DNA of 46,002 bases from Planctomycetaceae bacterium. Its GTDB lineage: Bacteria > Planctomycetota > Planctomycetia > Planctomycetales > Planctomycetaceae. Positions 2,875 to 16,436 of this stretch are shown here, piece after piece. The stretch lies in NCBI GenBank assembly GCA_020426325.1, contig JAGQQG010000048.1:1-46002 (forward strand). The letters run 5' to 3'. Under the pieces are notes generated by a model. The model did not search any database. It saw only the letters and a program-made list of their open reading frames with translations, and was not told the origin of the DNA. Both the position numbers and the translations under genes were made by a program. The number at the start of each line of letters is the position of its first letter. Positions within the stretch are counted from its first letter, which is position 1.

Positions 2875-4356
2875 GTGAATATCCGTCCGTACTTCTGCAC
2901 GATCCTTCTCCTGAGCATGTGGCCTTGGAACGTCGCTGTTGAAGCGGCGGATCGACCGAACGTGCTGATCCTGTTTGCGGATGATCAGCGCCCCGATGCC
3001 GTACATGCCTTCGGAAACGAGGTCATTCAGACACCGAACATTGATTCGCTCGTTCAGGAAGGGTTTCGGTTTGAGCGGGCGTATTGCATGGGGTCGATGA
3101 CAGGTGCAGTTTGTGTCCCCAGCCGGGCCATGCTGAACAGCGGCCGCAGCCTGTTCCGCGTCGATCACAAGCTCTTGGGGATTCCAACTGCCGGGGAGAC
3201 GTTCGGTCAGCAGGGATACGTGACGTTTGGCACGGGAAAGTGGCACAACGGAGCCGAGTCATTCCTGCGAAGCTTTCAACAGGGGACAGCCGTCTTCCTC
3301 GGCGGGATGAACGATCACACGAAGGTGCCACTCGTTGACGTCGCCAACGGCGAGATGACCAACAAGCGAGTGGGAGACGGGTTCTCCAGTACATTGTTCG
3401 CCGATGCAGCGGTTGATTTTCTGAAGTCGCAGGACAGCGAGAAACCGTTCTATGCGTACGTGGCCTTCACAGCACCGCACGATCCACGGCAGTTCCCCGA
3501 TGAGGTAGCGGACTTGTATCCGCCGGAGGAGATGGCAATGCCGGTGAACTATCTGCCGCAGCATCCTTTCTTCAACGGTTGGATGACCGGCCGGGACGAA
3601 ACCCTTGCTCCGTGGCCGCGCACAAAAACGATCATTCGGCACCAACTGGCCGAGTATTACCGGATGATCACCCATCTCGATCAGCAGATCGGTCGCGTTT
3701 TGCAGGCATTGGAAGAGAGTGGACAAGCCGACAACACAATCATCGTCTATGCAGCTGATCATGGACTCGCTCTCGGCAGTCATGGCTTGCTGGGCAAACA
3801 GAGTGTTTACGAACACAGCATGGGGACTCCATTGGTGCTCAAAGGGCCGGGGATTTCTGCGGAGCGGTCCAGCCGCGCCTTCGCGTATCTGTTTGATATC
3901 TTCCCGAGCCTGTGCCAACTGACGGGCGTCACACCTCCGGAGGGAGTCGAGGGAAAGAGCCTTGTCCCCATCTGGCAGGGCCGGAGCCACTCCGTGCGGC
4001 CGAGTATCTTTCTGGCCTATGAGACGTTCATGCGGGCAATTCGCACCGACCGCTGGAAGCTCATCCGATATCCACACATCAATCGCACACAGTTGTTTGA
4101 TCTGGAGAACGATCCGTTCGAACTGCACGATCTGGCGAACGACCATCGACAGGCACAGCGGGTGGCTGACATGTTCGCACTGCTGGAACAAGCTCAAGTC
4201 GACTACGGAGACACGCTGCCACTCACGTCGAAAGATCCGGTTGATGACTACATCGACCTGACCGGACATAAGCGCAAACCTGATCAACATCAGCCGGAAT
4301 GGATCGTCCGCAAGTATTTCGAACTGGAGGGTTGGGACTGGCAGGACAGTGAATAG
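2875..4356 (+). CDS. Secreted sulfatase (choline/iduronate-sulfatase-like)
   Basis: A 493-residue sulfatase with a signal peptide (about 1-24). Visible active-site elements are LILFADDQRPD (metal Asp pair, D36, D37), VCVPSRAML with formylglycine precursor C80 (C80-V-P-S-R84), GTGKWHNGAE (K122, H124), FTAPHDPR, and YAADHGLALGSHGLLGKQ near residue 300. The DDQRPDAV opening and the SHGLLGKQSVYEHS motif point to the iduronate-2-sulfatase/choline-sulfatase-like group rather than to the arylsulfatase at 1010. The start is GTG at 2875, with GAGGAGG at 2863-2869 giving good spacing. The two sulfatases here are not close duplicates, so they likely act on different sulfated sugars. Confidence 0.9.
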   Translation: MNIRPYFCTILLLSMWPWNVAVEAADRPNVLILFADDQRPDAVHAFGNEVIQTPNIDSLVQEGFRFERAYCMGSMTGAVCVPSRAMLNSGRSLFRVDHKLLGIPTAGETFGQQGYVTFGTGKWHNGAESFLRSFQQGTAVFLGGMNDHTKVPLVDVANGEMTNKRVGDGFSSTLFADAAVDFLKSQDSEKPFYAYVAFTAPHDPRQFPDEVADLYPPEEMAMPVNYLPQHPFFNGWMTGRDETLAPWPRTKTIIRHQLAEYYRMITHLDQQIGRVLQALEESGQADNTIIVYAADHGLALGSHGLLGKQSVYEHSMGTPLVLKGPGISAERSSRAFAYLFDIFPSLCQLTGVTPPEGVEGKSLVPIWQGRSHSVRPSIFLAYETFMRAIRTDRWKLIRYPHINRTQLFDLENDPFELHDLANDHRQAQRVADMFALLEQAQVDYGDTLPLTSKDPVDDYIDLTGHKRKPDQHQPEWIVRKYFELEGWDWQDSE

Positions 4357-4385
4357 CTCTTGTCTGTTACGGAAACAAACAGCTG

Positions 4386-4655
4386 ATGCCTCAAGTGCAC
4401 TTCACTCCGAATCTCAAAAAACATCTCGACTGTCCACCGACAGAAGTGGTCGGACGAACGGTCCGTGAGGCGTTGGATGTCGTCTTCGCTGAAAATCGAC
4501 GGCTGCGCGGGTATATTCTCGATGATCAGTCACGACTGCGCAAGCATGTGACAATCTTTGTCGATAATCAAATGATCCGGGATCGAAGCCATCTCAGCGA
4601 TGCCGTCACCTCAGAGAGTGAGATTTACGTGATGCAGGCGCTCTCGGGAGGCTGA
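4386..4655 (+). CDS. MoaD/ThiS-like ubiquitin-fold carrier protein
   Basis: An 89-residue protein ending in LSGG. The C-terminal Gly-Gly and the beta-grasp pattern (VHFTPNLKKHL, VREALDVVFAENRRLRGYI, HVTIFVDNQMI, SEIYVMQALSGG) mark the MoaD/ThiS family, whose members carry sulfur as a C-terminal thiocarboxylate after activation by an E1-like enzyme. No moaE, thiF/moeB or thiazole genes are nearby, so a molybdopterin or thiamine role is not supported by context. It stands 100 bases ahead of a membrane protein and about 600 ahead of a BNR-repeat protein. I recall MoaD-like genes sitting next to BNR/WD40-type genes in other bacteria, with unknown role. Confidence 0.85.
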   Translation: MPQVHFTPNLKKHLDCPPTEVVGRTVREALDVVFAENRRLRGYILDDQSRLRKHVTIFVDNQMIRDRSHLSDAVTSESEIYVMQALSGG

Positions 4656-4755
4656 TGATTCACCGAATCCAAGATTGCCCGCATCTGTGCGATGCGAATC
4701 AGGATAAACCGACGCGAACAGAAACCTTTAAGGAGACCAAGGGGCAGCTGATTTT

Positions 4756-5211
4756 ATGACGAATTTCCTCGACGACGATTACGATCCCGGCTCTGGACCT
4801 CAACCGGGAGGCAGCAACAAAGCACTCATGATTGGGGTCTTCGCGGGCGTGGGCCTGCTGGTGTGTCTCCTGTGTTGCGGTGGGGGAATCGCGTTCTTCT
4901 ATTTCGGCACCAGCGTGCTGGCTGAAGAAATACGGAATGAGCTGAAAGTCAATCCGGTGGTGCAGGAAAAAGTCGGCAACATCAAAGAGTTGGAGATCGA
5001 CTGGATCAAGTCGGGAGCCGCTGATGGTGAAGACGATTTCGTTCTGCGAATCTTCGGAGACAAGGCAAGCGGATACGTCACCGTCGAGTCCATCACCGAT
5101 ATCGACGGAAATGAAGAAGTTGTCAGCGGCACTCTGGAACTGGATTCCGGCGAGACGTTCGACCTGTTTCCTGAGGAAGATTCTTCGGAACTGCCTGTCG
5201 AACCCGAGTAA
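4756..5211 (+). CDS. Single-TM protein, possibly Coa1/Tim21-like
   Basis: A 151-residue protein with a short Gly/Pro/Asp-rich cytoplasmic N-terminus, one strong membrane segment (about 24-52, with a CLLCCGGG core), and an extracytoplasmic domain of about 95 acidic residues. The outer domain (EEIRNELKVNPVVQEKVGNI, then FGDKASGYVTVESI) recalls the cytochrome-oxidase assembly factor 1 (Coa1) fold, where a short domain follows one anchor helix; this is a weak, pattern-level resemblance. The start is the ATG at 4756. It lies between the MoaD-like and BNR genes with gaps of 100 and 47 bases, so the three may be one operon. Confidence 0.7.
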   Translation: MTNFLDDDYDPGSGPQPGGSNKALMIGVFAGVGLLVCLLCCGGGIAFFYFGTSVLAEEIRNELKVNPVVQEKVGNIKELEIDWIKSGAADGEDDFVLRIFGDKASGYVTVESITDIDGNEEVVSGTLELDSGETFDLFPEEDSSELPVEPE

Positions 5212-5258
5212 CGCGCGGGTGAAATTGACGTCACTTGCAAATCAAACAGAGAAACAAC

Positions 5259-6389
5259 ATGAGCAATCGATTATACGTCGGCACCCGGAAAGGTCTGTTC
5301 GTTCTTGAACGTCGCGATCAGGGTTGGGAGATTGCGACGGTTCATTTCCTCGGCGAGCCGGCGACAATGTTTCTGCAGGACCCGCGGGACGGGTGGCTGT
5401 ACACAACGCTCACACTCGGTCACTTCGGAGCCAAGCTGCATCGTTCGGGTGACGGCGGCAAGACGTGGGAAGAGTGTGGCGTCCCGGTCATTCCCGCAGG
5501 GGCAGAAGTCCCGATGATGGTCTTCGACGAAACCGGGATGCCAGTATCGCCAGCCCCGCAGAAGGCTGCGAGTCTCAGCGAAATCTGGTCACTCGAAACT
5601 GGCGGGGCGGATGAGCCGGAAGTGCTTTGGGCAGGGACGATCCCCGCTGCCTTGTATCGTTCGACCGACCGTGGTTCGAGTTGGGAACTGGTTGAGTCGC
5701 TGTTCAATGTTGAAGAACGGATGAAATGGTTCGGCGGGGGCAAGGATGATGCCGGGCTGCATACGATCTGCGTCGACCCTCGGGACAGCCGACATGTGAC
5801 CATCGCGATCTCCGCTGGCGGTGTGTGGGAGACCCGTGATGCGGGCGAGAGTTGGACCAATATCGGACAAGGCCTGCGTCAGGATTACGTGCCCCCCGAC
5901 CTCGCCTACGCGACCGACACACAGGACGCACATCGTCTGGCCTTCTCCGCAGCCGATCCCGACGTGATGTGGGTCCAGCACCACAACGGCATCTTTCACT
6001 CAACCGACAACGGAAAAAACTTCCGTGAGATTGAGGACGTGTCCCCCTCCGTATTCGGCTTTGCGGTCTGTGCCCACCCGCACGATCCCAGGACGGCCTG
6101 GTTCGTACCGGGAGAGAAGGACCAGTGCCGGATTCCGGTCGACGGAAAGATGGTCGTCACGCGCACGCGTGATCGTGGCGAAACATTCGAGGCACTCCGC
6201 GAAGGACTGCCGCAGGAGCACTGCTATGACCTCGTGTTTCGTCACGGACTCGACGTGGACGCAACCGGAGACCGACTCGTCATGGGGTCATCGACCGGCG
6301 GCCTGTGGGTCAGCGAGAACAGCGGCGACACCTGGACATGTGTGTCGAACACCTTGCCACAGATCTACTGCGTGCGGTTCGCGCGATAA
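5259..6389 (+). CDS. BNR/Asp-box beta-propeller protein
   Basis: A 376-residue protein without a signal peptide. It contains six Asp-box repeats of the S-x-D-x-G-x-T/S-W type: HRSGDGGKTWEE, YRSTDRGSSWEL, WETRDAGESWTN, FHSTDNGKNFRE, TRTRDRGETFEA and WVSENSGDTWTC. This pattern fits a six-bladed propeller like those of sialidases and Vps10-type proteins. Sialidase catalytic residues were not recognised, so an enzyme name is not warranted. The ATG at 5259 (MSNRLYVGTRKGLFVL) was preferred to a TTG at 5235. It follows the MoaD-like and single-TM genes closely, and its product is predicted to be cytoplasmic. Confidence 0.85.
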   Translation: MSNRLYVGTRKGLFVLERRDQGWEIATVHFLGEPATMFLQDPRDGWLYTTLTLGHFGAKLHRSGDGGKTWEECGVPVIPAGAEVPMMVFDETGMPVSPAPQKAASLSEIWSLETGGADEPEVLWAGTIPAALYRSTDRGSSWELVESLFNVEERMKWFGGGKDDAGLHTICVDPRDSRHVTIAISAGGVWETRDAGESWTNIGQGLRQDYVPPDLAYATDTQDAHRLAFSAADPDVMWVQHHNGIFHSTDNGKNFREIEDVSPSVFGFAVCAHPHDPRTAWFVPGEKDQCRIPVDGKMVVTRTRDRGETFEALREGLPQEHCYDLVFRHGLDVDATGDRLVMGSSTGGLWVSENSGDTWTCVSNTLPQIYCVRFAR

Positions 6390-6445
6390 TGTGTCGTCAT
6401 GTTGGAACGAACTACTTTACACGCACGGAAAACAAAAGGTGCATT

Positions 6446-6892
6446 ATGCCAAAGGGACACCCGTTTTATATGCTTTGGTCGGGAGCATTAAATTTTGGAG
6501 ACACGCCGGGCGTGTTTACGAATGCCCAGTTCGTGGGTCTACTAGTTCAGCTTCCAGTGACATTGACATTTGTTCCTGATGATGACTCGCCGATACGGTT
6601 TCTACTTCGAACAACTGATGTGGAAATCTTTAACGACAAGAAGCACCCAGTCTACTGGGACTGGCTCCCCGGCGCACCCCTGCCGAATCCCGTTGGCTTC
6701 ATTGATGATACTGAACTCATTCCTGGCCGCCCGGAGTACCATCAGTTGGCGGTACCTCCTCATAACGCTCAGCTGGGACCGCATACGATCACGATTCTGG
6801 TCAATCCGGAGGTTTCGGCAGGCCTCAAGGATGACTTCGTTCTCGAACGAGTAGAAGCTCACGACACGATTGGTGCGAAGATCGGTTGGTAA
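6446..6892 (+). CDS. Hypothetical protein
   Basis: A 148-residue protein I do not recognise. It has no signal peptide or membrane segment, and is rich in Pro, Asp and Phe with probable beta-strand structure (QLPVTLTFVPDD, GPHTITILVNPE, DDFVLERVEAHD). The ATG at 6446 has an AAAAGGT site at 6433-6439. The frame opens further upstream inside the BNR gene, which is only the overlap of two frames. Its local composition is slightly less GC-rich than its neighbours, which could mean recent arrival. It ends 127 bases before the convergent methyltransferase gene. Confidence 0.6.
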   Translation: MPKGHPFYMLWSGALNFGDTPGVFTNAQFVGLLVQLPVTLTFVPDDDSPIRFLLRTTDVEIFNDKKHPVYWDWLPGAPLPNPVGFIDDTELIPGRPEYHQLAVPPHNAQLGPHTITILVNPEVSAGLKDDFVLERVEAHDTIGAKIGW

Positions 6893-9707: not shown

Positions 9708-11510
9708 TCAGGTCTGCCGCGTCTCCAACGTCTCCCAGCGAGCAAACAACGTTTCGAGTTGCGAATTCAACTCCTGCAAGCGGGCGTTCACGTCGGCGAT
9801 GACGGAGCCTTCCTGTTTGAAGAACGTCGGGCTGGCCATCTGTTCGTGAAGCTCAGCGACTTCCTGTTCGAGTTCATGGATCTGTTCAGGAAGTGCTTCG
9901 AGTTCCTTCTGTTCCTTGAAACTGAGTTTGGCGGGTTTGCGATCCGGGGAAGCCGTCGTCCTCTCAACTTTTGTAGTCGGCGGGTCCGGCTCGCTGTGAA
10001 CGGCTGACTGCTCGCCGCGTTGCCGGACGTAGTCGTCATAGCCTCCGTCGTACTCCTTCACCACGCCATCCCCCTCAAAGGCAAGCGTACTGGTCACCAC
10101 GTTGTTGAGGAAGGCGCGGTCGTGACTGACCAGCAGCAGGGTGCCGGAGTAATCGGCCACGAGTTCTTCCAGCAGTTCGAGCGTCTCGGTGTCGAGATCG
10201 TTCGTTGGTTCGTCGAGGACCATCACGTTGGAAGGGCGTTTGAAGATACGAGCCAGTAGTAGCCGGTTGCGTTCACCTCCGGAGAGGTAGCGGGCAGGTC
10301 GGCGGGCGCGCTCGGGAGTGAACAGGAAGTCCTGCAGGTAACCGATGACATGCTTGGATTTGCCGTTGATGAGGAGCGTGTCCTGACCCTCGCCCACGTT
10401 CTCTGCAACCGTCTGTTCCTCGTTGATCTGCTCGCGGAGCTGATCGAAGTAGATCACCTCCAAATTCGTCCCGTGCCGCACGGAGCCGGACGTCGGTTCG
10501 AGGTCGCCCAGCAGTAACTTCAGGAGTGTCGTTTTTCCAGTCCCGTTGGGGCCGATGATGCCAATCTTGTCGCCGCGCGTAATCAGCATCGACAGGTCCT
10601 GCACAACGGGTTGCTGACCATCGCCGTATGTGAATGTCAGGTTCTTCGTCTCGATGACGAGCCGTCCGGAGCGTTCAGCTTCTCCTGCCTGCATGCGCAC
10701 ATTGCCAAGTTTCTCGCGGCGCTGTCGGCGTTCGTCCCGCATCTTGACGAGTGCCCGCACGCGACCTTCGTTGCGGGTCCGGCGGGCCTTGATCCCCTGG
10801 CGAATCCAGACCTCCTCTTCGGCCAGCTTGCGATCGAACGCCGCGTTCTGCTTCTCCTCAGCATCCAAAGCCTGCTGCTTGCGTTTGAGGAACGTGTTGT
10901 AGTCACAGGTCCAGTCGAACAGACGAGCCCGGTCGACCTCGATGATCCGCGTGGCCAGCGACTGCAGGAACACCCGGTCGTGGGTCACAAAGACCAGCGT
11001 CCCCTGATATGCCTTGAGAAAACCTTCCAGCCAGGAAATGGACTCGATGTCGAGATGGTTCGTCGGTTCATCGAGGAGCAGAATGCCCGGTTCGAGCACA
11101 AGAGCGCGGGCGAGCAGTGTACGACGTTTCATGCCGGACGACAGAGTCGCGAACCGATCAGTACCGTCCAGCGACATGCGGGAGAGTACGACCTCGACCG
11201 CCCGTTCGATCTGCCATTCGTCGAGATCGGCGTCGGCAGCCCCGCCCGCGATGACTTCCGAGACCGTGTGATCGCTGCCGTCGGGGACTTCCTGAATCAG
11301 CCGGGCGATCCGGACCCCATTCGCCGGCTTGACCAGACCTTCGTCCGGAGCGATTTCACCGGCCATAATCTTCATCAGAGTCGATTTGCCGGCACCGTTG
11401 CGGCCGAGGAGGCCAATCCGTTCCCCCATGTCGATTTCCAGATCGACCCCATCCAACAAGGGCTCCCCGCCAAACGAGAAACGGACATCACGGAGACTGA
11501 GCAGAGACAT
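9708..11510 (-). CDS. ABC-F family ATPase (Uup/EttA-like)
   Basis: A 600-residue protein with two ABC ATPase domains and no membrane segment. Domain 1: Walker A GRNGAGKST, signature LSSGMKRR, Walker B ILLLDEPTNHLD. Between the domains is a charged linker (the P-site tRNA-interacting region of ABC-F proteins, around QALDAEEKQNAAFDRKLAEE). Domain 2: GPNGTGKTT, LSGGERNR, VMVLDEPTNDLD. The C-terminus is a coiled coil (LEALPEQIHELEQEVAELHE), which places it near Uup. ABC-F proteins act on the ribosome rather than as transporters. The ATG at 11510 (MSLLSLRDVRFSFGG) is the conventional start; an ATG at 11528 is also in frame. Confidence 0.93.
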   Translation of the reverse strand: MSLLSLRDVRFSFGGEPLLDGVDLEIDMGERIGLLGRNGAGKSTLMKIMAGEIAPDEGLVKPANGVRIARLIQEVPDGSDHTVSEVIAGGAADADLDEWQIERAVEVVLSRMSLDGTDRFATLSSGMKRRTLLARALVLEPGILLLDEPTNHLDIESISWLEGFLKAYQGTLVFVTHDRVFLQSLATRIIEVDRARLFDWTCDYNTFLKRKQQALDAEEKQNAAFDRKLAEEEVWIRQGIKARRTRNEGRVRALVKMRDERRQRREKLGNVRMQAGEAERSGRLVIETKNLTFTYGDGQQPVVQDLSMLITRGDKIGIIGPNGTGKTTLLKLLLGDLEPTSGSVRHGTNLEVIYFDQLREQINEEQTVAENVGEGQDTLLINGKSKHVIGYLQDFLFTPERARRPARYLSGGERNRLLLARIFKRPSNVMVLDEPTNDLDTETLELLEELVADYSGTLLLVSHDRAFLNNVVTSTLAFEGDGVVKEYDGGYDDYVRQRGEQSAVHSEPDPPTTKVERTTASPDRKPAKLSFKEQKELEALPEQIHELEQEVAELHEQMASPTFFKQEGSVIADVNARLQELNSQLETLFARWETLETRQT

Positions 11511-11594
11511 GAGAGCGTACGAAACCATTCCAGCGGATCGGGACCAACAGGAATTGCTTCTAACGTGTCCGTGTCGTTTTGACCAGCGGTGATC

Positions 11595-11816
11595 TCAGAT
11601 CGCCTCGCTGCCAACCCGTTTCAGAATCTCGCAGAGCATAGCCGTCTGTTTTTCGGTGTGGTCATCGAGACAGCGGAGATGGTTCGTCCAGGAATCGCGA
11701 AGCGGCAAGACGAAGTGCTTCGCCGTCCACATGGCACAGTGGCTCAGCATCCGGAGAAAGACGATGAGCACCAGCAGGGGAGTTCCCAGATCGATACAGC
11801 GTTCAATCCATTCCAC
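11595..11816 (-). CDS. Small membrane protein overlapping the ethylene-receptor-like gene
   Basis: A 73-residue protein starting with GTG at 11816-11814, which overlaps the end of the upstream gene by 14 bases in another frame. It has one membrane helix (about 9-28, LGTPLLVLIVFLRMLSHCAM) followed by a charged helical tail (LPLRDSWTNHLRCLDDHTEK onward) of about 40 residues, predicted to lie in the cytoplasm. The overlap suggests translational coupling, hence a partner of the sensor-like protein. I do not recognise the family. A frameshift that splits one longer protein is an alternative, because the same tail could follow the third helix of the upstream protein. Confidence 0.55.
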   Translation of the reverse strand: MEWIERCIDLGTPLLVLIVFLRMLSHCAMWTAKHFVLPLRDSWTNHLRCLDDHTEKQTAMLCEILKRVGSEAI

Positions 11817-12162
11817 GGTGCAGAATCCAAATGATGAGAGTGATGTTGGCCAGCCACGAGATGCCGGCTGTCTGCCAGGTCCACAGAGCGACAAGCAGAT
11901 AGTTGGGGTAGAAGAAGGGCATGATCCCCTCGATCAGATGCCCGATCGCACAGCTGAAGACGAACGCTCCGTAGATCAGCACGATGCGTTCGATCTGCAA
12001 TGGCCTGTCGAAGAAACCACTGCGAAATGCCTGCCACAAGATCAGCGGATTCACCAGATAGGCCAGAGACAGCAAGAACGATCCGCTCCAGTAGAGCAGT
12101 TCCAACCACAGAGGCCAGACTCCCTCGACGCAACACTCACTGCGAGGGAGGAAATGAACCAT
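11803..12162 (-). CDS. Stand-alone ethylene-receptor-like membrane sensor domain
   Basis: A 119-residue, three-helix membrane protein (about 17-43, 57-78, 86-114). It matches the N-terminal ethylene-binding domain of plant and cyanobacterial receptors in several places: ECCVEGVWP (C10, C11) against the CNCIEPQWP opening of ETR1, LAYLVNPL against IAYFSIPL, and GAFVFSCAIGHLIE against GAFIVLCGATHLIN. C71 and H75 keep the C-x3-H spacing of the copper ligands Cys65 and His69. The residue aligned with the essential Asp25 appears to be S28, so true ethylene binding is uncertain. No histidine kinase or GAF domain follows. The ATG at 12162 has GGAG seven bases upstream. Confidence 0.65.
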   Translation of the reverse strand: MVHFLPRSECCVEGVWPLWLELLYWSGSFLLSLAYLVNPLILWQAFRSGFFDRPLQIERIVLIYGAFVFSCAIGHLIEGIMPFFYPNYLLVALWTWQTAGISWLANITLIIWILHRGMD

Positions 12163-12653
12163 GAATCACTCCGAATTGAACACGGCAGGACGACATCAGG
12201 TCCTGTTGCCCTACGCGGAGCGGTTGCGCTTTGGTCAGAGTTCGAACGTGCTTGGCAATGGAAATCGACGACGCGGGGCGGGTTGCGCCGACGTGGTGAA
12301 TGTTATGCCAGGCGGTCGCGGCTCGGCAGGAGCCTCGCCCTCCCATGTCGAGAATTCGCGGCATCCATTTTCGCTGTACTTGCAGTGTCCGACAGATGCC
12401 GTGTCTTGCTTCAAACCAACACGAGCAGGACGACCACGAAAAAAACAAACCCCACGCGTTGCCGGAGAGACAGCGAGTGGAGAGCTGTCATCACTGGCAA
12501 CGGTGGGGAAGGGAAGGAGTCCGGGAGAGTGTTCGCTGTAGGAAGGATGTGAGGGGAGTCGTACGTCGCTGTCCCCTCACCCTGATTTCTCGCTGATGGC
12601 TCGAAATCTGTCCCTCTCCCTCATGGGGAGAGGGACGAGTGTACCTCTCATGC
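12163..12653. other. Intergenic region with dispersed repeats
   Basis: No convincing gene. Around 12312-12351 lies a GCTCGGCAGGAGCCTCGCC-type sequence whose minus frame reads GGRGSCRAA, a peptide that recurs in spurious planctomycete ORFs. From 12547 to 12640 lies a CCCCTCACCCTGATTTC-type sequence ending in a perfect 11-bp hairpin (12610-12636). Confidence 0.5.
12610..12636. terminator. Perfect 11-bp hairpin after the regulator gene
   Basis: GTCCCTCTCCC, a five-base loop and GGGAGAGGGAC form a perfect stem, starting 18 bases past the stop of the minus-strand regulator gene at 12654. The minus strand continues AGATTTCGA, a poor T-run. It may terminate that gene, but it is also part of a dispersed repeat. 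Confidence 0.4.
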
Positions 12654-14042
12654 TTAAGCGGCGCGGGAGATACGATTGGAACCCGGCCCGCCACGCGGGG
12701 GGTAGCCGTATTCGCGAAGCTTGCCGGACAGAGTTCGCAGCCCGATCTTGAGGGCCTTGGCCGTCATTTCGCGGTTCCCACCGAAGCGATTGAATGTCGC
12801 TTCGATGAGTTTGCGTTCCATCTCACGCAGAGTGAGTCCGCTTTCTTCGGCTTCATCCTCTGCCGGCTTCTCGATCCAGGTGGCGAGAGTGTCGGCGTGA
12901 AGTTCTGTTCCGGTTTCGATCGCACAGCAACGTTCGAGAACGTTGTTCAGTTCCCGAATGTTGCCGGGCCACTGATGCTGCTTCAACAAATCGAGAGCTT
13001 CCGGGGTCAGCCGGAGTGTCTGCTTGCCTTCCCTAACGGCGTACTCGGCGAGGAAGTGCTCAGCGAGAACGCTGATGTCTTCGATCCGATTCCGCAGAGC
13101 AGGAACTTTCACGACATGTCCGCTGAGGATCTCCAGCAGGTCCGCTCGGAACTTGCCTTCCTTCACGGCAGCACGCAAATCGACGTGCGTGGTCGCGATG
13201 ATGCTCGGAGGGGGGAGTTCGCCTTCCTTCAACTGATCAGACGATGCTGACGTTGCACGGAGGACACGGACTAAACGCTCCTGAGTCGTCAGCGCGACGG
13301 CATCGACATCGTCGAGGAAGAGCGTGCCGCCTGCTGCTTGCTGGAGCCGACTCTCTTCCCCTTCGGGAGATTCGCCGAACAACTCCTGTTCGATGGCCGT
13401 GCCACAGAGGACTTGACAGCGGATTCGAACGATCGGTTTGCGGCTGCCAAAGCGGGCCCGGTGCAGGGCTCGTGCGGCGACCGTGGTGCCCGAACCGGCT
13501 TCACCGGTAATGAGCACCGGACTGCGATCGTCAGCCAGTTGCTGAAGTTCATCACGCAGTCGCAACATGGAGTTGCACTGTCCGACCATGTCGTCCACAC
13601 CGCGAGAGAGCAATCGTCGTTTGAGCTGCTGGTTCTCAGAGATGAGATGCGATCGGCCGAGTGCGGTGAAAACGGCCCCTCGGAGCTTGTCGCGTGTCAG
13701 GGGGGGATCGAGAACTTCACAGGAAGAGAGTGTCGCAGCCCGGAACTGCTCACGCTGTTGAGCTGCCGGAAGAATAATAAACTGTGTCGGCTGATGATGC
13801 GTCCGAACCAGCCGTTCGAGTTCGATCACCTCCCGGACATCTGCTGGTTCGTCGAGGATACAGACACCAAATGTCTCATCGGGAAGAATCTCCCGGAGCT
13901 GCATGATGTCGGACGCCTCACACGTTTCCGTCGTTTGGTCGGCGATGATTTGAGCCAAACGTCCACGAGCGTTGGCATCACGAGAGCAGAGAACAGCTCG
14001 TCCGCTGAGTCGGATCGTTGCTGCGAATTGGTCAGTAGTCAT
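12654..14042 (-). CDS. Degenerate NtrC-like regulator (pseudo-receiver, AAA+, Fis HTH)
   Basis: A 462-residue protein with the layout of a sigma-54 activator. The receiver-like part (about 14-130) keeps a possible phospho-Asp (D64 in CILDEP) but lacks the acidic pair and the conserved Lys (DPPLT instead of TKP). The AAA+ domain (about 150-390) has Walker A GEAGSGTT with T186 in place of Lys, Walker B LFLDD, and no GAFTGA loop: after ELFG comes ESPEGEESRLQQAAGGTLFL. FRADLLEILSG and LRNRIEDI are retained. The C-terminal Fis-type HTH (NRFGGNREMTAKALKIGLRT) is intact. It probably binds DNA but is unlikely to activate sigma-54 by ATP hydrolysis. The neighbour upstream is the Cys-rich HEAT gene. 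Confidence 0.88.
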   Translation of the reverse strand: MTTDQFAATIRLSGRAVLCSRDANARGRLAQIIADQTTETCEASDIMQLREILPDETFGVCILDEPADVREVIELERLVRTHHQPTQFIILPAAQQREQFRAATLSSCEVLDPPLTRDKLRGAVFTALGRSHLISENQQLKRRLLSRGVDDMVGQCNSMLRLRDELQQLADDRSPVLITGEAGSGTTVAARALHRARFGSRKPIVRIRCQVLCGTAIEQELFGESPEGEESRLQQAAGGTLFLDDVDAVALTTQERLVRVLRATSASSDQLKEGELPPPSIIATTHVDLRAAVKEGKFRADLLEILSGHVVKVPALRNRIEDISVLAEHFLAEYAVREGKQTLRLTPEALDLLKQHQWPGNIRELNNVLERCCAIETGTELHADTLATWIEKPAEDEAEESGLTLREMERKLIEATFNRFGGNREMTAKALKIGLRTLSGKLREYGYPPRGGPGSNRISRAA

Positions 14043-14630: not shown

Positions 14631-15749
14631 TCAGTTGGCGAGCCCCAGCAGACCAGCCAAGCCTTTCTTGGAGGAAGCCGGACGAACCGAACTGTGTCGA
14701 GGATAAAACTTGGGGAAGTATGCACTGGGCGGTTCCGGTGCAGCTTCGGGCATCGGCTCTGCAGCCGGTGCAGCTTCTGGAGCAGCCGGTGCAACAGGAG
14801 CTTCGTCACTCTCGGGGAGGTCAGCCGGAGCAGATGGTGCGGCATGATCTGCGACAGGAGGAGCTGTCGGAGCGGCATGTCCAGTCGTGCATCCACTCGT
14901 GCAACCGGAGTCGCAGCAACCTGAGTCACAGCAGCCGGTCTCACAGCACGCCACTTCGCAGCATTCGGTGTAGCAAGGATCAACAACCTTGTAACCACAC
15001 TGCTTGAGGGCTCGCTTGGCGTACCACCGCACTCGCCAGTCGCAGTCTGCCAACGCACAGGTCAGAGCCGAAACAACTTCCTGGCTGCAGCAGCAGGAGT
15101 TCTTGCGGAGCTCGTCACCAATTTCATTAGCGGCTTGAGCACGAACACGCTCGTCGGTGTCGTTCAAGGCGTAAATCAGTGCACACATGAGTTCCGGGTA
15201 GCAGGCACAGTCGAAGGTCCAGCTCATCTGACGAACAGCACGGCGACGCTGACGAGCGTAGCAGGCAGTCTGAGACTGGTAGATCAACTCTGCCAGAATG
15301 CAGGAGTCATCACAGCAAACGGTATCGCAGCAGTCGTCACAGCAACTCGGATCGCAGCATTCGTCGCAACATGACGGATCACAGCAATCTTCACAGCAGT
15401 TGTTGTTGCAGCATCCGGTCCCGCAAGCGGTATCGCAGCAGGCGTTGTTGCCACAACCGTTGTCACAGCAGCCACTGTTGACGGGGCAGCAGGCAGCCGG
15501 ACACCCATTGCCGATGCCATTGCAGCAGGGGCGTTTGAGTGTGGAACGACGGCGCTGATAGCAATACGCATTGCAGTCTCGGCACGGCTTGACGATGACC
15601 GGCTGACAGCACTCCGGCTGGCAGGTCGGCACGCAGTCGCAACATTTTGCAGAGCCTTTGTTGAAATACTTGTTGAACAAGCCGGCCTCAGAGATCTGAG
15701 TGAAACCAGCGAGCACAACCAGCGCGGCGAGCACATGGGTCGTTTTCAT
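14631..15749 (-). CDS. Secreted cysteine-rich HEAT-repeat protein
   Basis: A 372-residue protein with a signal peptide (MKTTHVLAALVVLAGFTQIS, cleavage near EAG) and about 58 cysteines. The first half is a run of CC pairs such as CCDPSCCDECCDPSCCDDCC; the middle has two HEAT-like helical repeats (MCALIYALNDTDERVRAQAA and SALTCALADCDWRVRWYAKR); a second Cys cluster follows (ECCEVACCETGCCDSGCCDS). The tail is Ala/Pro-rich and ends in a basic segment. The start at 15749 has AAGGAG seven bases upstream; the frame extends upstream to 16049 without support. It may be a disulfide-linked cell-envelope protein or a metal-binding protein; function unknown. Confidence 0.85.
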   Translation of the reverse strand: MKTTHVLAALVVLAGFTQISEAGLFNKYFNKGSAKCCDCVPTCQPECCQPVIVKPCRDCNAYCYQRRRSTLKRPCCNGIGNGCPAACCPVNSGCCDNGCGNNACCDTACGTGCCNNNCCEDCCDPSCCDECCDPSCCDDCCDTVCCDDSCILAELIYQSQTACYARQRRRAVRQMSWTFDCACYPELMCALIYALNDTDERVRAQAANEIGDELRKNSCCCSQEVVSALTCALADCDWRVRWYAKRALKQCGYKVVDPCYTECCEVACCETGCCDSGCCDSGCTSGCTTGHAAPTAPPVADHAAPSAPADLPESDEAPVAPAAPEAAPAAEPMPEAAPEPPSAYFPKFYPRHSSVRPASSKKGLAGLLGLAN

Positions 15750-16436
15750 GGACAGTCTCCTTCCTGTGGATCCCATTGGGGTCGTCATGACCACCGGGTC
15801 AGTGCCAACGGCCGGATTGACAGGCTCGTGTTGAGTCCGTCGGACATTGTGCGACTTGGTGAGTCGACCTTCCAGGTGTCGTCTCACCGACTCGGTGGCC
15901 TTGCGGATGGTAACCCGCAAGACCCCTCTGTCGTTTCCATCGCTGTCGGGGGACTTCCTTTTACCCCATGAGAGCCTGATTGGCTCTTTTCGCCCCCGAC
16001 TCTGCGATGAGTCATTGAATGAGTTCGATATAGAATGGGGCAGGATCAACTATCGACCTGGCCTGAATCGCCGCTGAGTCATCTCACTGAGAGGCCACTC
16101 AGACCAGTTGTGTCGAATGTAACTCCCCGCAGAGGCGCTTCGTGCAGGTCATTCCAGATCTGCGGGGGATCAGACTGTCCGTCGATTCGTTCGCCGAATC
16201 GATTATGCGTGTTGGGCAAAGATCAACGAGGGAAAACGCGATCGCCTGCCCTGAGAAAGTCAAATCTCAAACCGAGGATTTCTATGACATTGTCCCCGCG
16301 AGGGTGGAGACAGCGCGGTCGATCACGACGTAACGACGATGACGGTTCTACATGACTCACGGCATCACACGATGGCTACGGTCGCAGGGGATGACGATCG
16401 GCACAATCTGCGCGACCTGACTGTTCGCAATCTGTT
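15750..16436. other. Long intergenic region upstream of the Cys-rich gene
   Basis: About 690 bases with no convincing gene. It must contain the promoter and leader of the minus-strand Cys-rich gene. A small TTGCGG/CCGCAA hairpin lies near 15901-15920 and a GAGCC/GGCTC pair near 15970-15985. I found no clear promoter or known riboswitch. Confidence 0.4.

Follow-up and report, generated by a model that had tools for sequence, protein, structure and literature searches.

The ETR1_N domain (Pfam PF25487) is the three-helix membrane domain of plant ETR1, SynEtr1, AzoEtr1, and planctomycete proteins. The isolated membrane domain of ETR1 is reported to bind one Cu(I) per monomer very tightly, with a K_D of 1.3e-15 M (PMC6586836). 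In ETR1, changing C65 or D25 is reported to abolish ethylene binding, and D25 is predicted both to set the position of H69 and to form a bond with K91 (PMC11819568). The Cu(I)-binding peptide POLARIS is described as binding to the membrane domain of ETR1, with copper strengthening the contact (PMC12744750).

We analyzed a planctomycete locus in which an ETR1_N protein stands alone beside a small one-helix protein. The locus lies in a 46,002-nucleotide stretch of DNA (here called the window), which is contig 367 of a 6.8-Mb genome in 424 contigs that is 95.6% complete. The sensor gene (positions 11803..12162, minus strand; Pfam PF25487, AlphaFold, and dN/dS) encodes a three-helix membrane protein of 119 aa, beginning with ATG at 12162 and stopping at 11803, with the stop codon included in the span. 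The partner gene (11595..11816, minus strand; AlphaFold and dN/dS) runs from GTG at 11816 to a stop at 11595 and encodes 73 aa, an N-terminal membrane helix followed by a charged helical tail. The two frames overlap by 14 bases (11803..11816, minus strand). A sequence-only reading of this DNA had given the coordinates, the 119 residues, and the overlap correctly; the strand was absent from it. Our preferred reading, to which we give a probability of about 0.4, is that the sensor may be a split, ethylene-blind Cu(I)-binding membrane subunit, derived from planctomycete receptors, which modulates the one-helix partner.

The match to the receptor sensor domain claimed in the sequence-only reading was recovered by HMM search. 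The sensor, entered without its start codon, scored 34.8 bits against PF25487 (E = 2e-8), above the cut-off of 27. When the whole genome was searched with PF25487, the sensor was found at 34.3 bits and was the sole ETR1_N match above the cut-off. None of 14 control genomes had a match above this cut-off, and sub-threshold matches with E values up to 1 occurred in 9 of them. When 44 other ETR1_N rows were made into an HMM, the window protein reached 47.8 bits on it, compared with 10.6 bits for the best hydropathy-preserving shuffle (2,000 made, 1,982 scored), 0.4 bits for the reversed protein, and 0.7 bits for the partner. These scores indicate that the sensor is a true member of the ETR1_N sensor-domain family. 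A chance open reading frame is ruled out by the shuffle scores and by the purifying selection described below.

The AlphaFold model of the sensor, made with the window, sister, and four phage sequences as input, has helices at residues 18 to 47, 54 to 84, and 88 to 118 (mean pLDDT 78.5, pTM 0.67). As had been claimed, the protein ends after the third helix: the open frame of 120 codons stops there, with no output module on the same chain, and no kinase gene lies beside it. Comparison of the model with BFVD and PDB structures gave no match reaching an E value of 0.001; a BFVD structure labeled as a bacteriophage holin family (E = 0.82) and PDB zinc-transporter structures (E = 2.5 or worse) were discarded. 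Sequence searches of NCBIfam, PHROGs, and PDB with the window proteins gave nothing better than E = 0.077, and a sequence search with the sensor found no solved structure. The plasmid search returned a single Acaryochloris match (E = 1e-2) with no listed gene beneath it.

Sensor residues were compared in an alignment of 59 rows, comprising 2 window-type, 44 other cellular, and 13 phage or prophage sequences. The cellular rows came from 45 of the 55 relatives' loci (L003 to L027 and L031 to L060), with 10 near-duplicates left out by eye, and L020, which lacks helix 1, was removed before residues were counted, leaving 44. Not all of these 44 bear a kinase: L052, L056, and L058 have a coiled tail, and further rows stop early or run into the end of a contig. 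All of the features named in the sequence-only reading (the C10-C11 double Cys, the LAYLVNP motif, C71/H75, and S28 at the Asp25 position) are present. C71 and H75 (codons 11938..11952, minus strand) form a C-x3-H pair corresponding to copper ligands C65/H69 of ETR1, and this Cys and His are kept in all 59 rows (2/2 window-type, so also in the sister; 44/44 other cellular; 13/13 phage or prophage). C10 of the double Cys (codons 12130..12135, minus strand) aligns with the family N-terminal Cys, which is found in 40 of the 44 other cellular rows (2 gaps, 1 Ser, and 1 Thr in the rest) and in 13/13 phage rows. At the Asp25 position (codon of S28, 12079..12081, minus strand), Ser in the window and Thr in the sister stand in place of the Asp kept in 44/44 other cellular and 8/13 phage rows. 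The Ile35 position is Ile in all 44 other cellular rows and Asn (N38) in both window-type rows. The helix-3 Lys, kept in 43/44 other cellular and 4/13 phage rows, is Thr in both window-type rows. Pro36 is retained in the window type (P39) and in only 3 of the 13 phage rows, and the I62 position is V68 in the window and Ile in the sister. Ile35 and Pro36 of ETR1 count among the residues needed for ethylene binding; the full list of seven ETR1 binding residues is reportedly that of Wang et al. 2006.

The window type therefore keeps the copper pair, with both ends of the contact equivalent to D25-K91 gone. Because Asp25 is replaced, ethylene is an unlikely ligand, in line with the earlier suggestion that the ligand may be something else, and from its residues the sensor appears very unlikely to sense ethylene. 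The loss of D25 could also weaken copper binding, because D25 in ETR1 is modeled as positioning H69 (PMC11819568).

Querying 170 family genomes with the sensor protein yielded 27 places in 23 of them, and Pfam matches in 392 phylum genomes numbered 55, spread over 42 genomes. The only intact stand-alone frames were those of the window (120 codons) and its sister genome G065 (135 codons) in the family set and those of the window and G213 in the phylum set. The short frame of G022 (108 codons) is a fragment without helix 1, and an ETR1_N piece in G294 (82 codons) contains an internal stop. Two genus mates carry a canonical-score ETR1_N elsewhere, in a 956-codon frame in G066 and a 299-codon frame in G064 (a genome 72% complete), and the stand-alone form was not found in either. 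Above the cut-off, no ETR1_N other than the stand-alone form occurs in the window genome or G065, and none at all in G067.

The window and sister sensors share 71 to 72% amino acid identity, with a dN/dS of 0.16 (dN 0.195, dS 1.22; all dN/dS figures are Nei-Gojobori values, with synonymous sites near saturation). On the same basis, dN/dS between window and sister is 0.035 for the partner (88 to 89% identity) and 0.056 for the neighboring NtrC-type gene, and the partner values across all six pairs of the four genomes that have it range from 0.029 to 0.119. Both genes are under purifying selection. A frameshift or sequencing split is ruled out, as the sister has the same two frames and there is no fused version at the locus in either sensor-bearing genome. 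The sister overlap is of the 4-base ATGA type if its partner begins at the first Met, and in that case the exact 14-base overlap is not conserved.

The partner is present in 4 of the 170 family genomes, all of this genus, and its profile found only its own genome among the 392 phylum genomes. In G066 and G067 (88 and 77% identity to the window partner), it lies about 207 to 218 bases after the same NtrC-type gene, with no sensor gene between. The pair order suggested as worth checking is thus kept in one of the three relatives that have the partner (G065), the other two having the partner only. Because G066 and G067 keep the partner with no room for a sensor gene, the partner is independent of the sensor, and its persistence excludes a strict two-part machine for the genus. 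The proposal that the partner carries the signal out is not supported in the form in which it was made, since both genomes retain the partner without the sensor. A four-taxon tree of the NtrC-type gene joins the window with G066 (bootstrap 87; 62 on codon positions 1 and 2), so that loss of the sensor in G066 is weakly favored over a single gain in the window and sister.

The AlphaFold model of the partner is one helix from residue 2 to 71 (mean pLDDT 78.0, pTM 0.41), and the protein has no match in Pfam or NCBIfam. Of its 73 residues, 4 are Cys and 4 are His, a modest, uncorrected signal of richness relative to the other window frames (binomial p = 0.005). H46, C49, H53, and C62 are invariant in the four genomes, and on our own reading the first three are spaced for one helix face. 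Residue 26 is His in the two sensor-bearing genomes and Gln in the two without the sensor, a suggestive split that may track sensor presence and may reflect one or two events.

The order of transcription on the minus strand is NtrC-type regulator, sensor, partner, and ABC-F ATPase. The upstream neighbor (12654..14042, minus strand; Pfam) is an NtrC-type AAA+ regulator with a Fis helix-turn-helix, which is also found in G065, G066, and G067. Its receiver-domain match is weak, and judged by eye its sequence seems to lack the GAFTGA loop. The ABC-F ATPase (9708..11528, minus strand; Pfam) is downstream in G065 and G066 too, and no good match to it was found within the 15 kb searched in G067. A protein that by eye is very Cys rich adjoins the locus (14631-16049, minus strand); it has a HEAT-like stretch just below the Pfam cut-off and is 54, 67, and 49% identical to its counterparts in G065, G066, and G067, respectively. 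Comparison of the four upstream regions by eye and with MAFFT revealed a block, GCGCAAC-N9-10-TAG (12202..12229, minus strand), that may be a shared promoter. In the window and G065 it stands ahead of the sensor, and in G066 and G067 ahead of the partner, an arrangement that would fit a sensor gene lying now, or having once lain, between the partner and an older promoter. The 12 neighbors scanned against Pfam are ordinary chromosomal genes (sulfatase, methyltransferase, Asp/Asn hydroxylase, nucleotidyl transferase, NfeD, and others), with no copper gene and no phage gene, endolysin included, among them.

Our preferred reading takes as its observed ground the family membership, the residue pattern, the selection, the gene order in two species, and the partner alone in two others. 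The 119-aa protein would be a planctomycete ETR1_N receptor sensor domain now standing alone. It would form a dimer in the membrane, probably with the N terminus outside and the C terminus inside, linked or stabilized by its N-terminal cysteines, and would hold Cu(I) on C71/H75. Without Asp25, Ile35, and the helix-3 lysine, it should neither bind ethylene nor signal by the receptor route. The sensor would be translated together with the partner and would bind it in the membrane; the nearest precedent for such a contact is that of POLARIS with ETR1. The cytoplasmic helix of the partner would bear the conserved H46, C49, H53, and C62, and how much copper the pair holds, or its redox state, could then set the association of the partner or its hold on a putative target. 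Against the copper-subunit reading stand the lack of a copper gene among the 12 neighbors, the lack of a significant BFVD or PDB match, and an AU test result (p = 0.122) described below.

The same copper ligands would serve a pair that only buffers Cu(I) or passes it on at the membrane, with no signal output. The loss of the signaling residues D25 and helix-3 Lys with retention of the ligands fits this, as do the Cys- and His-rich partner with its four invariant residues and the very tight Cu(I) binding reported for the isolated ETR1 membrane domain (PMC6586836). However, none of the 12 neighbors scanned is a copper gene, and two congeners have the partner without the copper-site protein, and we regard this simpler copper handling as unlikely.

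The sequence-only reading had held that in known receptors the domain is fused to an output module, and this is too strong: besides the three planctomycete coiled-tail frames, there are 13 ETR1_N genes that stand alone in DNA of phages or prophages. They are in IMG/VR contigs L070, L071, L074, L076, and L078 to L084, in Maribacter phage Molly_1 (gp065), and in the G213 prophage; the viral contigs were scanned with domain alignments and then with the matches found. All 13 proteins score at least 43.7 bits on the 44-row HMM, and the four scanned with Pfam exceed the ETR1_N cut-off (L070, 55.6 bits; L071, 104.5 bits; G213, 45.7 bits; L079, 68.3 bits). PHROGs gave nothing better than E = 0.077 for the five ETR1_N proteins of the window, G213, L070, L071, and L079. 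The G213 gene is assigned to a prophage or phage contig because a phage tail protein (phrog_1101, E = 3.8e-178) precedes it; searches of phage records and viral contigs with the G213 protein found nothing.

A one-helix, charged-tail gene adjoins the ETR1_N gene in all 13 loci (by a hydropathy rule in 12 and by eye in Molly_1), with the sensor first in 12. In 12 loci, the one-helix gene starts from 62 bases before to 7 bases after the sensor stop codon, figures that use the first possible start codons and may overstate the overlaps. An endolysin gene lies within the examined flank in 8 of the 13: GH108 in L078 to L082 (by Pfam in L079 and L081 and by tblastn in L078, L080, and L082), GH19 in L083, phage lysozyme in L076, and amidase in Molly_1. 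None was found in L070, L071, L074, L084, or G213 with tblastn queries and with Pfam on a few frames. In L079 (IMGVR_UViG_3300046648_000141), the lysis-like region at 3109-5901 contains an endolysin, small membrane genes, ETR1_N, and one-helix charged-tail genes, with a weak Rz-like spanin match (E = 3e-4). The stand-alone gene is likewise in an apparent phage lysis region in L076, L078, and L080 to L083. In Molly_1 (NC_062751.1; L077), gp065 (5890-6759) encodes 289 aa, has the ETR1_N domain with C-x3-H, and is annotated as hypothetical; it lies directly before the annotated endolysin and after the one-helix gp064, which it overlaps by 4 bases. The search of phage records found the gp065 domain in eight records of Molly and Colly phages. 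Two of the phage proteins, in L071 (4887-5441) and L074 (4049-4594), keep the equivalents of Asp25, Tyr32, Ile35-Pro36, Cys65, and His69, so they are candidate ethylene-binding proteins of phages.

The 13 loci do not amount to 13 independent events, as many of them (L078 to L082) are close kin, and the tree shows G213 and two main phage lineages. One-helix genes abound in lysis regions, so the adjacency there may be a mere shared address. The use of ETR1_N in phages, often near lysis genes, looks unreported. In one library of open papers, judged by title and the start of the abstract, we found no report of an ethylene-receptor domain in phages or lysis and no planctomycete ethylene-receptor paper describing such stand-alone genes; for a stand-alone ethylene-binding domain with histidine kinases, the match found there was, by its title, about light-controlled motility.

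In the best tree (104 columns, rough bootstrap), the window and sister lie inside the cellular planctomycete rows, within forks supported at 98/95, 81/20, 92/95, and 90/80 and with a stem 2.94 changes per site long. Twelve phage rows lie on the other side with the cellular L031 and L032, and G213, which has a long branch, joins the cellular rows. Forcing the window, sister, and 12 phage rows together lowers the log-likelihood by 19.6 and is not rejected (AU p = 0.122), and the cellular placement of the window pair is unsure because of the long branches. The window copy may thus have a cellular origin separate from the phage copies, a placement that is not firm. The best-tree separation, together with the absence of sequence kinship between partner proteins of the three compared groups, suggests that the likeness of window and phage loci, a bare copper-site domain beside a one-helix protein, is most probably convergent. 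HH comparison of the window partner with the three groups of phage one-helix proteins gave E values of 0.056 to 0.37 over 7 to 18 columns, and a likeness in sequence between them was rejected.

It is conceivable, but decidedly improbable, that a stand-alone two-gene ETR1_N module had two or more separate origins, in the present planctomycete genus and in the lysis regions of phages, and that in phages it gates lysis or permeability by a Cu(I)-bound signal, which would be ethylene where Asp25 is kept. The odds are well against the window copy being a domesticated relative of a phage-type membrane-acting module, holin-like or lysis modulating. The constant one-helix neighbor, the shared order in 12 of 13 loci, the eight endolysin flanks, and the AU test leave some weight for it. 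In the best tree, however, the window pair falls on the cellular side, the partner is unlike the phage one-helix groups (best E = 0.056), no window-type relative was found in viral contigs, and the 12 neighbors scanned contain no phage gene.

We give little credence to a sensor that is still a receptor for a gas or small molecule, ethylene or another Cu(I) ligand such as CO, acting through a histidine kinase encoded elsewhere. In its favor, the sensor keeps, or replaces conservatively, the copper ligands, Y32, P36, and the I62 position, and no further ETR1_N passes the cut-off in the window genome or in G065, whereas one does in G066 and in G064 (72% complete). Against it, both D25, whose role in ETR1 is described in PMC11819568, and I35 are replaced in both window-type sequences, and no kinase lies beside the sensor. 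Least probable is a relic, with the gene as the remaining sensor half of a receptor that broke up, retained for now through translational coupling to the partner, a view that would suit the missing sensor in G066 and G067, the existence of broken pieces such as L020, and a window-sister identity of 71% against 91% for the NtrC-type protein, 88% for the partner, and 83% for ABC-F (the Cys-rich neighbor is lower, at 54%), but that sits poorly with a gene intact in two species at a dS of about 1.2 and a dN/dS of 0.16 with C71/H75 unchanged.

The preferred reading of a split, possibly copper-bound subunit sets the ETR copper site apart from both ethylene sensing and the kinase, which allows the role of the bare domain to be asked about. 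The pair also points to the unreported-looking phage use of the domain, often near lysis genes, and these phage relatives add interest to what is a variant of a known family. Since the cultured Maribacter phage Molly_1 has an ETR1_N gene beside an endolysin, the phage half is testable at the bench.

Compared with the PF25487 receptors, the window sensor has in common the three-helix membrane domain, the N-terminal Cys, Y32, P36, and the C65/H69 pair, but it lacks the output module and has Ser or Thr for D25, Asn for I35, and Thr for the helix-3 Lys. The planctomycete proteins L052, L056, and L058 resemble it in having no catalytic module in frame and differ in their fused coiled tail and in keeping D25. 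Their tails are 74 to 87 aa long with a similar C-terminal motif and no kinase. The phage proteins, like the window sensor, stand alone, keep C-x3-H, and adjoin a one-helix charged-tail gene; in contrast to it, 8 of the 13 have D25, 8 of the 13 have an endolysin in the flank, and the best tree separates 12 of the 13 from it. Molly gp065 is also longer, at 289 aa compared with 119 aa. The partner resembles Arabidopsis POLARIS, which is described as small and helical, with two conserved Cys and a Cu(I)-dependent contact with ETR; POLARIS differs in being a plant peptide of 36 aa, whereas the interaction within the window pair is putative (PMC12744750 for POLARIS).
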